A stretch of DNA of 35,170 nt, taken from the NCBI GenBank assembly GCA_024278345.1, contig JAJRTK010000420.1:1-35170 (forward strand). The letters are read 5' to 3'. Each line of letters starts with the position of its first letter. The stretch's first letter is position 1. Of this stretch, positions 7,257-14,276 are shown piece after piece. The stretch comes from a bacterium (lineage in GTDB: Bacteria > CSSED10-310 > JAJRTK01). Under the pieces are notes generated by a model. It did no database searches. It worked only from the letters and a program-made list of their open reading frames with translations, and was not told where the DNA came from. Made by a program: the position numbers and the translations under genes.

Positions 7257-8315
7257 ATGTTCGGGTCCAAAGGTAAACGCCTCGTAGGGTTGGATATAGG
7301 GACGAGTTCGGTCAAGGCGGTCGTGCTCAAAAAATCGGCGAAGGGCTATTCCCTTGAGAGCCTGGGAATTGAGCCACTACCGCCAGAGGTCATTGTTGAT
7401 CGCTCGATTTTGGACGCCGCGGTCGTGGTCGATGCCATCACGAAGCTGTTCAGCCAGAACCGCATTAAGGTGAAGGATGTGGCGATCAGCATGAGTGGCA
7501 ATGCCGTGATCGTGAAGAAGATCCCGATACCCTATCAATCGTCGCAAGATTTGCAGGAATCGATCCGTTGGGAGGCGGAGCCCCACATTCCCGACATCGA
7601 CGACGTGCATCTTGATTTCGCTATCCTCAACGAGGGGCAGGAAGACGGCGACATGGATGTCGTCGTGGCGGCCGTCAAGAAAGAGAAGATCAACGAATAC
7701 TTGGGGCTTATCGGGCAGGCTGGACTCCGAGCACGCGTTGTCGATGTGGACGGGTTTGCCATAGAAAACCAGTATTTCGTCAACTATGGCGAAGAATCTC
7801 GCGATACCGTCGCTCTCATCGACATCGGCGCGAGCTTGATGAACGTCGTGCTTCTGGCCAATGGCAAACATGCACTTTCGAGGTACGTTCGGACTGGCGG
7901 CAATACTTATACAGATGCCATCCAGAAGGAACTCAACGTCAGTTTTGACCAGGCAGAGGCCCTGAAGATGGGCGAAGAGGTCGAGGGGGTTTCCACGCGG
8001 ACGGTCCTCGATATTCTGAACTCCGTTACGGAGGACCTCTCCATGGAGATTCAGCGCTCCTTCGACTTCTTTTGGACGACCAATTCGTCTGAATCCATCG
8101 ACAAAGTCATCCTCACTGGTGGGTGTGCATTGATACCTGGAATCGATGCTTTCCTGGCTTCGCGCTTGAACTTGCAGGTGGAGATAGGCAATCCGTTTCT
8201 TGCTATACCGTATAGCGAGCGGCGGTTTCCGCCCGAGTTCATGCAGCAGGCGGCACCGATGTGCGCGGTGGCTGTCGGGTTGGCCATTCGAACGATAGGG
8301 GATCGCGAGCCATGA
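7257..8315 (+). CDS. pilM: Type IV pilus assembly protein PilM
   Basis: This 352-residue cytoplasmic actin-like ATPase is the usual PilM length. It has the FtsA/actin fold signatures LVGLDIGTSSVKAVVL (phosphate 1), ALIDIGASLMNVVLL (phosphate 2) and VILTGGCALIPGIDAFL (adenosine site), plus the PilM-typical WEAEPHIPDIDDVHLDF. PilM binds the PilN cytoplasmic tail and links the inner-membrane alignment complex to the pilus motor. ATG 7257 follows AAGGTGG. The gene leads a cluster in the order M-N-O-P-Q and its stop overlaps the pilN start (ATGA). Confidence 0.95.
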   Translation: MFGSKGKRLVGLDIGTSSVKAVVLKKSAKGYSLESLGIEPLPPEVIVDRSILDAAVVVDAITKLFSQNRIKVKDVAISMSGNAVIVKKIPIPYQSSQDLQESIRWEAEPHIPDIDDVHLDFAILNEGQEDGDMDVVVAAVKKEKINEYLGLIGQAGLRARVVDVDGFAIENQYFVNYGEESRDTVALIDIGASLMNVVLLANGKHALSRYVRTGGNTYTDAIQKELNVSFDQAEALKMGEEVEGVSTRTVLDILNSVTEDLSMEIQRSFDFFWTTNSSESIDKVILTGGCALIPGIDAFLASRLNLQVEIGNPFLAIPYSERRFPPEFMQQAAPMCAVAVGLAIRTIGDREP

Positions 8316-8920
8316 TCCGAATCAATCTACTTCCCGTGGAAACCAAGGTCCAGATTCCCAAAGCTTACACGCATTTGGCCTTGGCATTGGTCCTCTTGCT
8401 CATTGGCGGAGGGGCCGTCTACCTGAGAAACAGCATTGTCCAAACCGCGCTGGCCGCAAAGAGATCCAAGGCCAAGGAAAAGACGGCAAGAGTCAAGGAG
8501 CTCCAGAAGTTCATCAAAGGGGTCAAGACCTTTAGGAAGACCAAAAAAAGATTGGAACGCAAGCTCGAGACGATCCAAACCCTAAAGGAGAATCAGAAGG
8601 GGCCGCTTCGTTTACTCGCCGAGCTTCAGAATCGGATCCCGCGTTCTGTCTGGGTGACGCAGGTCAAGTTGGTGAGGAATAGAGTGACGCTCAACGGACT
8701 TGGTGTCACTCTCAGCGCCGTCGGTGATTTGCTGGAAAATCTCAAGAAATCGAAATTCTTTTCCAATATTGACTACAAGAAGTCCAGGGTCACAACGAAG
8801 CGAGGCCACAAGATTTATACATTTATCATGACTGCCAGATTTATCGCTGACCCAGAGAGGCATGCCAAGAAAGCCAAAAAGAAGAAGAAAAAGAAAAGAG
8901 GTCGGCGCAGGCGCCGCTAG
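8312..8920 (+). CDS. pilN: Type IV pilus assembly protein PilN, with polybasic C-terminus
   Basis: This 202-residue bitopic inner-membrane protein opens with MIRINLLPVE, the conserved PilN INLLP motif that docks into PilM. A transmembrane helix (LALALVLLLIGGGAVYL) and a periplasmic coiled coil and ferredoxin-like domain follow. It forms heterodimers with PilO. The start overlaps the pilM stop by 4 nt. The oddity is a C-terminal run made almost only of Lys and Arg, about 20 residues at ~8862-8917, encoded by a purine-rich, slippage-prone stretch. Confidence 0.93.
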   Translation: MIRINLLPVETKVQIPKAYTHLALALVLLLIGGGAVYLRNSIVQTALAAKRSKAKEKTARVKELQKFIKGVKTFRKTKKRLERKLETIQTLKENQKGPLRLLAELQNRIPRSVWVTQVKLVRNRVTLNGLGVTLSAVGDLLENLKKSKFFSNIDYKKSRVTTKRGHKIYTFIMTARFIADPERHAKKAKKKKKKKRGRRRRR

Positions 8921-8977
8921 GCTTCGCTTCTGTCGATGGAAAGTGAAGGGCTGGTTTTCTTCTAGGGAGGTCGTGGA

Positions 8978-9535
8978 ATGGCCGGGATCGATGACATCAA
9001 GAATCTGGATTGGAAGCCCATTTGGGGGGCAACGGTCGTGCTGCTCGCCATCATGGCGGGTAGTTATTGGTATTTTCTCGAAAAGCCCGCCAACGAGAGC
9101 ATGAAGAGGCTGCAGGTCCGGATCGGCAAGCTTGACGGAAAGATCCGCGTGGGAGAGGCTGCCGAAAGGAATTACGGAAAGCTGTCTCTGGAGATTCGGA
9201 AGCTAGAAGACAAGCTCCAACAGACCATCTCAATCCTTCCTCAAGAAAGCGCCTTGGACAGGCTGGTCCGGCAGGTGGAAAGCTTGGCATTACAGTCCAA
9301 CTTGGACGTCAAGGTTTTTGATCCGGGCCGCAGACGGAAGAAGGGCTTTTACGGTATCCAGCCTGTCAGTCTGAGACTCAAGGGTACCTACAAGGATTTG
9401 GCCGGTTTCGTGGAAAAAGTCGCCAAGGAAGAGAGAATTATCAATCTGACGGATATCGTGATGAACGTGTCTAAGCGGTCGCTCAATATCTCCATGAAAG
9501 TGCAGGTGTTTTGGTTTGTCGCTGGAAAAAAATAG
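8978..9535 (+). CDS. pilO: Type IV pilus assembly protein PilO
   Basis: This is a 185-residue bitopic membrane protein. A short cytoplasmic tail is followed by one helix (ATVVLLAIMAGSYWYFL), a coiled coil to about residue 85 (LEIRKLEDKLQQTISILP), and a periplasmic ferredoxin-like domain with SLRLKGTYKDLAGFVEKVA, the typical PilO core. The ATG has an excellent SD, AGGGAGG at 8964-8970. It partners PilN in the inner-membrane platform. The gene lies 57 nt after pilN. Confidence 0.92.
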   Translation: MAGIDDIKNLDWKPIWGATVVLLAIMAGSYWYFLEKPANESMKRLQVRIGKLDGKIRVGEAAERNYGKLSLEIRKLEDKLQQTISILPQESALDRLVRQVESLALQSNLDVKVFDPGRRRKKGFYGIQPVSLRLKGTYKDLAGFVEKVAKEERIINLTDIVMNVSKRSLNISMKVQVFWFVAGKK

Positions 9536-9841
9536 ACCACTTGCGAAGAAAAGTTGGGTATAATCAACTGTACTCCCAAACCTGGATATCTCCTCGTGGA
9601 TCGTGACCGCCCGGTGGGGCGCGTTTCCATCAAGGACCAGAAAAGCCCCACCGGAGGCGTCGGATACATAGGGTGGGGTTTTCAACTCACCCGTGCGTGA
9701 CGTTCTTGGATCGACCGATGAGGATGACGGTGGAAATGTATGGGGCATTCCCCAGTAGGGACTTGATGAGAGTTCCGGTGTCAAGGGTGCAGGCGGTAAA
9801 CTGACTTTCTAGTGAGAGACGCCATGGATAGGAGCAACGAA
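9536..9841 (+). other. 306-nt structured spacer between pilO and pilP
   Basis: No gene is visible. The spacer holds TATAAT at 9559-9564 inside a small inverted repeat, AGTTG/CAACT (9552-9556/9565-9569). A perfect 10-bp inverted repeat, CCGGTGGGGC/GCCCCACCGG (9611-9620/9645-9654), follows, then a hairpin GGGTGGG/CTCACCC (9671-9677/9686-9692). PilP genes usually follow pilO closely, so this may be an internal promoter with a structured leader. I could not match it to a known riboswitch consensus. Confidence 0.55.
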
Positions 9842-10375
9842 GTGAAAAAAATACTTGGGTTCGCGGCTCTGGCGCTGTCCCTGTTTTGGGGCGGTCAGCT
9901 TTATGCTCAACAAACCGCCGATCCGTTGGGAGACTCTCCGGAGAAGGAAACGGCTCCTGGCGAGGTTCCTCAGGATCTCGAAACCAACCCCGCTCTGCTC
10001 GAAGGTGGAGAACAGTTCGACCAAGGTGGCCGAAACATCTTCGACGAAGTGATTGCGCCGAGCGGCACGAAAAGAGGTCCTCGCGCCGAAGGCCTTCCAG
10101 GAATGGACATCAACCGGGTCGTTCTCCAGGGCATCCTCATGGGAGGCCTCGGGAATGTCGCCTTGTTGCTGGGGTCGGACAAGCAGCTCTACCATGCGAA
10201 AGTCAATCAACGTTTTTACGATGGAGTCTTGATCGCCATCGAAAGAAACAAGGTGGTTTTTAAACAGGAGGACTTTAACGAGCTTGGGCAGCCCCGGCCG
10301 CCCATTCGCCGAGAGAAATTGTTGCACAAGAAGAAGAGAAATAAACGGTTGAAGATCGCTGACGGAGGTTCTTGA
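9842..10375 (+). CDS. pilP: Type IV pilus assembly protein PilP-like
   Basis: This ~177-residue exported protein is called PilP from position and fold features. After a cleavable-looking signal peptide (MKKILGFAALALSLFWGG, ending QLYA before QQ) comes a disordered acidic linker. A small beta domain follows, with DINRVVLQGILMGG, VALLLGSDKQLYHAKVNQ and IERNKVVFKQE, typical of PilP/HofP. It would bridge PilN/PilO to the PilQ secretin in the periplasm. I prefer GTG 9842, because AGGAG at 9830-9834 gives 7-nt spacing and a clean signal peptide. ATG 9824 and GTG 9812 are in-frame alternatives. No lipobox cysteine is present, unlike lipoprotein PilP homologues. Confidence 0.82.
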   Translation: MKKILGFAALALSLFWGGQLYAQQTADPLGDSPEKETAPGEVPQDLETNPALLEGGEQFDQGGRNIFDEVIAPSGTKRGPRAEGLPGMDINRVVLQGILMGGLGNVALLLGSDKQLYHAKVNQRFYDGVLIAIERNKVVFKQEDFNELGQPRPPIRREKLLHKKKRNKRLKIADGGS

Positions 10376-10484
10376 TGGAACGTTTCAGCTTCCGTTTTGC
10401 CCTTAGGGCTAAGCAGATTGTTGGAGCTCCGGTTCATTGTCGATCCGTGAGTTTGTACCAGACACAACAGGGGAGGGAGTGAAC

Positions 10485-12596
10485 GTGTTTCCAGGGGCCC
10501 GATGGTTGCGCCTAAACCGACTCGTACGATTTGGTTTTGCATTGGCGTTTCTTGCAGTAGTTCATGTGGTGGCGGCATCGGATGCGCCGACTCTCATTAC
10601 GGGAGTCGATGCGCATTCTATTGCCGGTGGAACTGAGGTTCTCGTTCAAACCGAGGGTCGTCCCCACTACACAGCTTACCTCTTAAACGAACCTCTGCGG
10701 TTGGCGATCGATTTTGAGCAAACATCGCTTACCGAGAGTGACTTGAGTCATCTCCCATCCCTAGATGCCTATATCCAGAAGGTCGAGGGAAAACCATTCT
10801 ACGGTCGCCACGGAAAGAGCGTTCGCTTGGAGTTTTTTCTTCGCGATGACGTGGCTTACCAACTCGCGCCATCCGACGGTGGACTACTTGTGTCGTTTTA
10901 CGGGGGGGCCCCCAGCCTGAGCGAGGCAACGGATAGCGCGGAACTTCCGGCAGCGGAGAAAGTAGAGGATTCCTCCGGCTTGAGCTTGGATGTTCTGAAT
11001 GTTGAACCACGGGCTGACTCCGTGGCTTTTGTGCAGGTAGCCGAGTCCATCGACCTTTCGGCCAATTCTGTCGCGGATCCCGTGGCGGAGACTCCAGAAA
11101 GTCTCGGCGAGGAGATGGTCGCGAGCGAGCCTCTCGAAGACCACGTGGCTCCAGCTTTGTCACTCACCAGCCCTTTGGATACGTCTCCGGCCGTTGACGG
11201 TGTGACAGCCACCAGCGAAGAGAAACTTGCTGATGAGCTCGTGGCTTCCGTGGTCAAGCCCGTCGCGGAAGAAGTCTGGATCGACTATCGCGAGCTGGAA
11301 GAAGCCCGCACCGTGGGAGATTCCCTCGTGGCAGCGGGGAAGGCCAATGAGTTCATCACGCTGGCTCAGGCAGACTCCCCCGCGGGTATCGATGTCTTGA
11401 GTGGCATGGATGCCTCTTCCACCCGATTCAGTGGCCGCCCCATCAGCTTCGACGTCAAAAAAGTCGATATTGTTGAGCTCTTACGCGTCTTTTCGGATCT
11501 CACGCAAATGAACATTCTCATCGACCGCGGGGTGCGGGGACGGGTGACAGCGAAACTCAGAGACGTTCCTTGGGATCAGGCTTTCATCATCATCCTCAAG
11601 AACCAGGGATTGGGGTTCACCATCGAGCAGAACATTCTGCGAGTGGCTCCGCTTAAAACGTTGCGCCGTGAAATCCGTGATCAACAACGGCTCAGAGAGG
11701 CTCGTCTTGTGTCCGAACCTCTCAATACGGAGATTGTCTACGTCAACTACGCCAACCCGAAACAGCTCCTGCGAATGTTGAAGCCACAACTTTCCAGGCG
11801 GGGCAAGATCCTCAGCGATGCGCGAACGAACACCCTGATGATCCGGGATGTGCAGCAAAATATCGACAAAGCCAAGCGAATGGTTGAGATCCTGGACGTG
11901 AGAACGAAGCAGATCTCCATCAGCGCGCAAATTGTTCGGGCGAACAAAAACTTCACTCGTGACCTTGGGATTGAGTGGGGCGGGACCTTGGAGGCTTCCC
12001 CGCGCCTGGGCAATGACACGGGTTTGAACTTTCCAAACGACATTTCCTCGACTTTTGGGATCTCAGTACCAGGTGGTGGCACCGGCACCGTGGCCTTTGA
12101 TTTCGGCAATGTTCTCGACAGCGTGAACATCAATGCGATCCTGGGCGCGTCAGAGGCTGTCGGGTTGACGAAGACCATCTCCACGCCTCAAGTGACGACG
12201 TCGGACAATGTCGCGGCAAACCTTTCCAGTGGCGTGAACATTCCCTATGTCAGCACGACGATTACGGGCGGAGTCGCGGTGGGCACCATCGTCTTCCAGT
12301 CGGCGACGACGAGCATCAGGGTGACGCCACACGTCACATCCGATGGCTTCATCAAGCTCAAAGTGCAGCTCAGCAACAATTTCCCCAGCGCGTTCACGGT
12401 GGAAGCGGGGCCTGTCATTGCCACCAACAGTCTCAGGACCGAAGTATTGGTCCGAGACGGAGACACTTTTGTCGTGGGCGGATTGAACTCTAGCGTCGAA
12501 GGTACTTCCCAGACGCGAGTTCCCTGGTTCCACAAAATTCCGTTTCTGGGAAACCTGTTTAAGAACAATTCCGTGACGAATGATTACACGGATTAA
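10485..12596 (+). CDS. pilQ: Type IV pilus secretin PilQ, ended early by an in-frame TAA
   Basis: This is the outer-membrane secretin through which the pilus exits. It has a signal peptide (FGFALAFLAVVHVVAASDA), then an AMIN-like peptidoglycan-binding domain at about residues 34-95. A long acidic linker to ~310 follows, then an STN/N0-type domain (~320-390), a secretin_N domain (~415-475) and the secretin core from ~479. GTG 10485 has GGGAGGGA 8 nt upstream. The frame ends at TAA 12594-12596 after VPWFHKIPFLGNLFKNN and NDYTD. Secretins at this point normally run on through T-E-L-L-I-F-I-T-P. Exactly this sequence continues in the same frame after the stop, so the product is 703 residues instead of about 743. 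See the adjacent entry. Confidence 0.92.
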   Translation: MFPGARWLRLNRLVRFGFALAFLAVVHVVAASDAPTLITGVDAHSIAGGTEVLVQTEGRPHYTAYLLNEPLRLAIDFEQTSLTESDLSHLPSLDAYIQKVEGKPFYGRHGKSVRLEFFLRDDVAYQLAPSDGGLLVSFYGGAPSLSEATDSAELPAAEKVEDSSGLSLDVLNVEPRADSVAFVQVAESIDLSANSVADPVAETPESLGEEMVASEPLEDHVAPALSLTSPLDTSPAVDGVTATSEEKLADELVASVVKPVAEEVWIDYRELEEARTVGDSLVAAGKANEFITLAQADSPAGIDVLSGMDASSTRFSGRPISFDVKKVDIVELLRVFSDLTQMNILIDRGVRGRVTAKLRDVPWDQAFIIILKNQGLGFTIEQNILRVAPLKTLRREIRDQQRLREARLVSEPLNTEIVYVNYANPKQLLRMLKPQLSRRGKILSDARTNTLMIRDVQQNIDKAKRMVEILDVRTKQISISAQIVRANKNFTRDLGIEWGGTLEASPRLGNDTGLNFPNDISSTFGISVPGGGTGTVAFDFGNVLDSVNINAILGASEAVGLTKTISTPQVTTSDNVAANLSSGVNIPYVSTTITGGVAVGTIVFQSATTSIRVTPHVTSDGFIKLKVQLSNNFPSAFTVEAGPVIATNSLRTEVLVRDGDTFVVGGLNSSVEGTSQTRVPWFHKIPFLGNLFKNNSVTNDYTD

Positions 12597-12716
12597 CTCA
12601 TCTTCATCACGCCCACAATCGTTGGGGATGAGACGGTCGAACGGCGGAGCCTGGTCTTTGAGGCCTATGAAAAAGAAGGCAACAGAGACGGCACGCCGGA
12701 GTCCAGCAATCCATGA
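12597..12716 (+). pseudogene. pilQ: In-frame continuation of pilQ beyond the TAA
   Basis: Thirty-nine sense codons follow the TAA in the same frame before a TGA at 12714-12716. They begin LIFITPTIVGDETVERRSLV. LIFITP is the conserved last strand of the secretin barrel, so the coding sequence was built to be read. A single-base change (for example TTA to TAA) would explain the stop. CTCATC directly after the stop can pair with GATGAG at 12627-12632, with an inner CCCA/TGGG. Whether this is a real mutation, an assembly error or readthrough cannot be told here. Confidence 0.85.
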
Positions 12717-12739: not shown

Positions 12740-13333
12740 ATGCGTTCAATTAAGTTTTCCCTGCAGGTCGTGGTCACGGCGGTAACTCTCGCTGGGTTGG
12801 GCTTGGGACTGGTGAGCTGCTCGGATTTAGGCAACACGAAAGCGCTTTCACATCTCATTTTTAACGGCATCCTGAAAGGAGACGGCGGGGCCTTTCTGTC
12901 CGCTGACGGAATCGTTTCCGAGGTGGCGGTTACCCTTAACGACGAAGCCGACATCTCCATCACGAACGATCCGGTTCGCGATACTACGGACGTCGCTTCC
13001 AATGAACTCTACGACGTACTTCTGAAGACTTACACGGTTTCTTTCGAGCGGACGGACGGAGGAACTGCCGTGCCTTCCACGTTTGGTGTGCGGTTGACAC
13101 AAAGGCTGCCCATCAACGCAACGAGTACGGTGACCTTGTTGGTGCTTCGGCCAGAGCAGAAATATGTGCCGCCGCTGGGAGATCTACAGAACTTCGGCGT
13201 GGAGCTTGAAACCGGGTATCCCACCATTCAAACTCTGGCGACTGTTCACATGTACGGGGAAAACCTCGTCGGGGATGGCATTGAACTGAAGTTCCAGTTC
13301 AAGGTGACCTTCTGCCGGAAATGCAAGGCTTGA
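12740..13333 (+). CDS. Predicted lipoprotein, unknown function
   Basis: This 197-residue protein has a lipoprotein signal peptide: basic MRSIK, a hydrophobic core, and lipobox LVSC at Cys27. The mature part is beta-rich with no family I recognise. It ends in FQFKVTFCRKCKA, a CxxC near the terminus. ATG 12740 has a strong SD, AAGGAGGG at 12726-12733. It is the sixth gene of the pil cluster, so it may be a pilus-associated or outer-membrane factor, but that is inference from position only. Confidence 0.82.
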   Translation: MRSIKFSLQVVVTAVTLAGLGLGLVSCSDLGNTKALSHLIFNGILKGDGGAFLSADGIVSEVAVTLNDEADISITNDPVRDTTDVASNELYDVLLKTYTVSFERTDGGTAVPSTFGVRLTQRLPINATSTVTLLVLRPEQKYVPPLGDLQNFGVELETGYPTIQTLATVHMYGENLVGDGIELKFQFKVTFCRKCKA

Positions 13334-13349: not shown

Positions 13350-14276
13350 ATGAAGTCAAAGACAACTCCCATGATGAACTGGCTCAGCATCCGCTCGACG
13401 CTAGTTTTTGCCCTCTTGCTTGGAGCACTCGTGGCCGCTTGCTCGCTGGATGAAGGCAGTGAAAACAACCTTCCCGTCGATCCAAGCGTCGTCATCGATC
13501 CCACGCAAATTACACTTTCGGTGGAACTGTTGCCCTTCAACGTCCCAGCCGATGGCGTGACCCACACAACCATCGTGGCGCAAATCCTGGTGGAAGGGAA
13601 GCCCGTGCCAAACGTGCCGGTGCTCTTCTACAGCGAATGGGGGCGCCTGTATACCGCGTGTACGACGCCGCAAACGGTGACTGCGGGGGCTTTTTCCAAG
13701 GGGCTTTCCACCAATTCCGAGGGCTTCGCCTCGACGTTGCTCCAGTCTCCCGTGCTGCCACACCTGTACAAGGACGACAACGAATCCAACACCATCGGTG
13801 CCTTTTTCCTGGTCAATGGCCAGATCTTCCAGACCATTAACTCCAGCATCATCTGGCAAGTTGGGCTAGCATCTTTGCGCTCCGCTCCAAATGACGTCGA
13901 TGATTCGATTTCAGTCACCGCCGAGTTCGTCAGTGGGCGTGGAGATCCGGTCTCCGGATGTTCCGGTGTTTCCTGGTCGACGGTTCCCACCAGCGGCGTA
14001 GAGATCCAGAACAAGAGCCTTTGTGATTCCTCGGGGCGAGCCCGCACGACGGTGAAGTTCAAGCGCTACTGCGATGCCGACAAGCCATCCTGCGATTCAA
14101 TCCTGGAGAATAATAAGTGTCCCGGCGGAACCACTGACGTCTGCAGTGTCACACTGGAAATGGTGGCGACGTTCAATGGGGCGGGCCTCAACGAATGCGT
14201 CTTGGATACCGATGCCAGCCTTGCGATCATCGGTTTGCTGGGCCTGAGTAGGCCAAGGGGTTGCAAGTGCATCTGA
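13350..14276 (+). CDS. Predicted lipoprotein with Ig-like (Big-1/invasin-like) domains
   Basis: This 308-residue protein has a lipobox VAAC (Cys31) after a long hydrophobic signal. The mature part contains two Ig-like stretches. The first runs ITLSVELLPFNVPADGVTHT, with VPVLFYSEWG and TNSEGFASTLL, which resembles the Big-1 pattern of adhesins. The second, around residues 175-300, is cysteine-rich (at least nine Cys). It lies 16 nt after the preceding lipoprotein gene, and AGGAG and AGGAAGG stand upstream of the ATG. The two are probably cotranscribed and surface or periplasm exposed. A role in pilus biogenesis or adhesion is a guess. Confidence 0.8.
   Translation: MKSKTTPMMNWLSIRSTLVFALLLGALVAACSLDEGSENNLPVDPSVVIDPTQITLSVELLPFNVPADGVTHTTIVAQILVEGKPVPNVPVLFYSEWGRLYTACTTPQTVTAGAFSKGLSTNSEGFASTLLQSPVLPHLYKDDNESNTIGAFFLVNGQIFQTINSSIIWQVGLASLRSAPNDVDDSISVTAEFVSGRGDPVSGCSGVSWSTVPTSGVEIQNKSLCDSSGRARTTVKFKRYCDADKPSCDSILENNKCPGGTTDVCSVTLEMVATFNGAGLNECVLDTDASLAIIGLLGLSRPRGCKCI

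Follow-up and report, generated by a model that had tools for sequence, protein, structure and literature searches.

The closest described counterpart of the locus discussed here is PilQ, the secretin of the type IVa pilus (TIGR02515). The two share the AMIN-N0-N3-Secretin domain order, a place in a pilMNOPQ operon and a strand ending in (I/V)FITP, and differ in that the present gene carries one in-frame TAA codon in the last strand. In Vibrio cholerae, the PilQ barrel is assembled from four strands per subunit, and the structural model extends to residue 571, the end of the solved chain (PMC7545093). In the phage secretin pIV, C-terminal tags (His-tags) abolish function (PMC8563730). Premature stops in pilQ are documented both in gonococcal collections, which contain 18 such alleles (PMC7860988), and in Pseudomonas, where pilQ Q428* is selected by a pilus phage (PMC13170266).

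The window, by which we mean the whole stretch of 35,170 nucleotides analysed, corresponds to C358, one of the 550 contigs into which a 6.06 Mb draft genome, 87.9% complete, is divided. Below, we describe the interruption of its pilQ gene, which is most simply read as a recent loss-of-function mutation or a sequencing or assembly error, and not as a novel mode of stop-codon decoding.

The pilQ gene and its operon

The pilQ frame runs on the forward strand from a GTG near 10,479 or 10,485 to a TAA at 12,594–12,596, continues through 39 sense codons (12,597–12,713) and ends at a TGA at 12,714–12,716. The preliminary description had reported this in-frame TAA, the 39 open codons beginning LIFITPTIVG and the TGA at 12,714, and its coordinates proved accurate throughout. 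The start is probably GTG 10,479 or GTG 10,485, behind GGGGAGGGAG, as picked by eye from the sequence. The part before the stop (10,479–12,593, forward strand, ~705 residues) contains AMIN, N0/STN, Secretin_N and Secretin domains according to Pfam, and even when truncated it passes the TIGR02515 model (IV_pilus_PilQ) with 310.9 bits against a cut-off of 284.35, aligning to positions 1–413 of 428.

Upstream of pilQ lie PilM, PilN and PilO genes, recognised by Pfam PilM_2, PilN and PilO matches, and a gene in the position of pilP; all four occupy 7,257–10,375 on the forward strand with uninterrupted frames. The fourth frame (9,812–10,375) has no Pfam match and is named pilP by position alone. 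Only one PilQ was found in the genome, and its other three secretins have no internal stop. A second pilQ copy that could act as a substitute was sought in the genome and none was found, the remaining secretins being GspD-like or more distant. Two further secretins are located on contigs C3 and C163, which also bear PF00437 ATPases, and the genome as a whole has 22 matches to secretion or pilus ATPases of this family, far above the need of one pilus system.

The original end of pilQ

The 39 codons behind the TAA (12,597–12,713, forward strand) encode a conserved PilQ end (LIFITPTIVGDETVERRSLVFEAYEKEGNRDGTPESSNP). When the frame is read on with X at the stop, the Pfam Secretin score rises from 118.4 to 136.2 bits (+17.8) and the match, which otherwise ends at profile position 155, extends to 168 of 169, while the TIGR02515 score increases from 310.9 to 329.6 bits and the match covers positions 1–427 of 428. 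In an alignment of 11 secretins (this PilQ, with a placeholder as its stop residue, and ten others, of which five belong to the same phylum), the TAA falls in a column that is leucine in the aligned relatives and methionine in one. In the tail, all 11 sequences have an invariant F, T and P, and the earlier designation of this segment as the most conserved tail is a fair one.

Codon usage points in the same direction. The tail scores 0.35 bits per codon, compared with 0.20 ± 0.21 for the final 39 codons of the genes sampled and an average of −0.16 ± 0.19 for 126 start-less continuations, defined as a stop followed by at least 25 codons with no start codon. The sample consists of stretches amounting to 1.09 Mb, or 18% of the genome, with 620 genes. 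Among the start-less continuations, the pilQ tail ranks second by codon score, after a Gly/Ala-rich stretch that is taken for the putative antisense of another gene. The scan for interrupted genes detects only late stops with no start codon behind them; since it covers 18% of the genome and this class of stop only, it yields no pseudogene rate.

Gene spacing also bears on the position of the original end. The next gene (12,740–13,333, forward strand) encodes a lipoprotein of 197 residues with a signal peptide ending in LVSC, and phmmer identifies homologues of it immediately after pilQ in five relatives (E-values of 5e-14 to 4e-22). Its ATG at 12,740, which is preceded by a good ribosome-binding site (GGAAGGAGGG), is separated from the TGA by 26 nt and from the TAA by 146 nt; in the five relatives, the distance from the pilQ stop to the lipoprotein start is 16–30 nt. 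The order pilQ, lipoprotein, second lipoprotein and TPR/aroQ is kept in relatives. Because the spacing and gene order match the TGA, unlike the TAA, we infer that the TGA (12,714–12,716) is the old end of pilQ. Judged from sequence comparison, the gene truly ends with the 39 codons, and the proposal that the TAA interrupts a genuine coding sequence within its conserved last strand finds support in the gain of Pfam and TIGR02515 score, the codon usage and the alignment of relatives.

Two genes follow pilQ: the lipoprotein gene at 12,740–13,333 (about 200 residues, with no Pfam match) and a gene for a Big_1-like Ig-domain protein at 13,350–14,276. In several families of the phylum both seem to hold that position, homology having been checked for the first of them, and its conservation hints at an uncharacterised connection with the pilus machinery.

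The nearest genomes available for comparison come from different families within the phylum. A comparison with related genomes, which the preliminary description had proposed, places a sense codon at the TAA column in the aligned relatives: among the aligned sequences that were read, none has a stop there, which excludes a stop common to a clade of these relatives. The readable stops within matches from other genomes fall behind the ITP motif, and a search for relatives in the contig collection returned one distant locus only. Past the stop the tail is intact and homologous, and the relatives are uninterrupted, as in a nonsense allele or a recent pseudogene.

Predicted structural consequence

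The read-through secretin fragment (11,400–12,713) was modelled with AlphaFold2, using a placeholder residue at the stop; the mean pLDDT of the model is modest, at 69. The last beta-strand comprises residues 389–408, with a local pLDDT of ~80, and the stop corresponds to residue 399, midway along it. With the TAA inside this strand, the encoded PilQ is predicted to lack a complete last barrel strand.

PilQ function is likely lost through the TAA. In the mechanism we propose, a codon midway along the final beta-strand of the secretin domain would have become TAA, and RF1 or RF2 would terminate translation there. The PilQ released, of ~705 residues, would be missing the 39-residue tail and half of its last barrel strand. 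It would not be expected to form a working secretin ring, so that cells with the TAA allele should have no type IV pili that depend on PilQ. The other genes of the operon are intact, and the tail shows no decay so far.

Could the truncated PilQ instead be functional, with the TAA as a new gene end reached by adaptive shortening? The frame and operon are intact upstream of the stop, as this would require, but the stop halves the predicted last beta-strand and the lost tail includes the invariant F, T and P. The four-strand barrel of V. cholerae PilQ, modelled to the end of the chain at residue 571 (PMC7545093), and the inactivation of pIV by C-terminal His-tags alone (PMC8563730) likewise argue against a dispensable C-terminus. 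We regard adaptive shortening as very improbable.

Termination at the TAA codon

A further reading is that the TAA is read through, in a programmed or leaky manner, to give both short and full-length PilQ. The intact and coding tail would fit such a scheme, as would the C that directly follows the stop, a base correctly given in the preliminary description. That description had also raised leaky termination as an option, which the analysis leaves unsupported. TAA is the terminator of 96 of the 620 sampled genes, and prfA and prfB, encoding RF1 and RF2, are both present and uninterrupted; these observations rule out stop reassignment in this genome, and the presence of both release factors also argues against readthrough. 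Among the 48 tRNA genes detected, an ARAGORN scan of their loci found no stop anticodon and thus no stop-reading or suppressor tRNA, within a genome that is 87.9% complete and has one tRNA-like gene, on contig C257, for which no anticodon could be called.

Two observations on the tRNA complement stand apart from this question. On C257 (locus L079), tRNA-like sequences, some of them truncated and one with no readable anticodon, cluster at positions 2,500–2,950 of the minus strand and are perhaps of phage origin. A tRNA-Leu(UAA) was not found in the genome, though TTA accounts for 2 codons per thousand; this absence is probably a gap in the draft.

RNA structure offers mixed evidence. The suggested pairing of CTCATC (12,597–12,602) with GATGAG (12,627–12,632) is indeed possible, but the candidate hairpin that it forms directly 3' of the TAA (12,597–12,632, forward strand) is by itself of chance-level strength against shuffled sequence (z = 0.16), and it was rejected as a stimulatory element. 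The 157-nt stretch at 12,560–12,716 folds better than its shuffles (z −3.6), a level that is rare in this genome, where z −3.4 or lower occurs in 1 of 240 intervals lying within genes and in 6 of 238 that surround true stops; this favours readthrough, although the span was picked after the finding had been seen. Its fold consists mainly of three hairpins in series: the first precedes the TAA, the second follows it immediately and the third, which is long, lies at ~12,640–12,700. In two relatives, the homologous stretches fold no better than chance (z 0.06 and −0.19), which also speaks against readthrough. The good folding of the 157-nt stretch is a weak point that is left unexplained.

Every relative that was read lacks a stop at this column, so nothing points to selection for the TAA. 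Literature searches on readthrough in secretins and on assembly errors provided nothing useful. Overall, programmed or leaky readthrough appears highly unlikely, and its regulated form, in which the surrounding RNA structure would help to produce mostly short PilQ with few full-length subunits, is less credible still.

Nonsense mutation or sequence error

Both a nonsense mutation and an assembly or base-call error, the other options named in the preliminary description, are live explanations of the TAA. We lean, by a little, towards a recent nonsense mutation in the bacterium's only pilQ. The position and frame of the TAA, the family tail behind it and the gene order can be read directly from the assembly, and the TAA base itself is marginally the more probable state of the organism's own gene. 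Leucine codons one substitution away from TAA make up ~2 per thousand codons in this genome, against ~114 for all leucine codons, and this rarity renders a one-step origin from leucine somewhat less probable a priori.

The organism's pilQ may instead be intact, with the TAA stemming from a consensus or assembly error or from a minority strain allele in a metagenome-type draft. A consensus error is conceivable because the draft is spread over 550 contigs and is 87.9% complete, and it has no close relative with which to be compared. Only one codon is affected, the gene and operon being otherwise normal, and the 1.09 Mb sampled contain no second clear case of this kind, as sporadic errors would predict. 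No positive evidence tells against an error; consensus substitution errors are rare at good coverage, however, and no other lesion was recognised in the window. We give this explanation a substantial probability that falls short of even. The weights placed on a real nonsense allele and on an error or minority allele are judgements, not computed values.

As it is known so far, this is a lesion of one codon in one draft, and it matters mainly for annotation. Automatic gene calling would report a complete PilQ of ~705–719 residues and miss the loss of half of the last strand. If reads confirmed the TAA, the locus would add one more natural case of type IV pilus loss; only proven readthrough of the TAA would come as a surprise.

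Comparison with known systems

Premature pilQ stops are well known, both natural and phage-selected, so even a real nonsense allele at this locus would be ordinary. Like the alleles of Neisseria gonorrhoeae and the Q428* allele of Pseudomonas aeruginosa, the gene described here has a stop within an otherwise normal pilQ. It differs from them in that the stop is very late, in the last strand, and in that it comes from a sparsely sampled lineage and is known from a draft assembly alone. With programmed readthrough and recoding, such as TGA decoded as selenocysteine with a SECIS element or TAG decoded as pyrrolysine, the locus shares a conserved open frame beyond the stop. Unlike those systems, its stop codon is TAA, no dedicated tRNA was found in the genome, the adjacent hairpin is at chance level, and the relatives have no stop at the same column.
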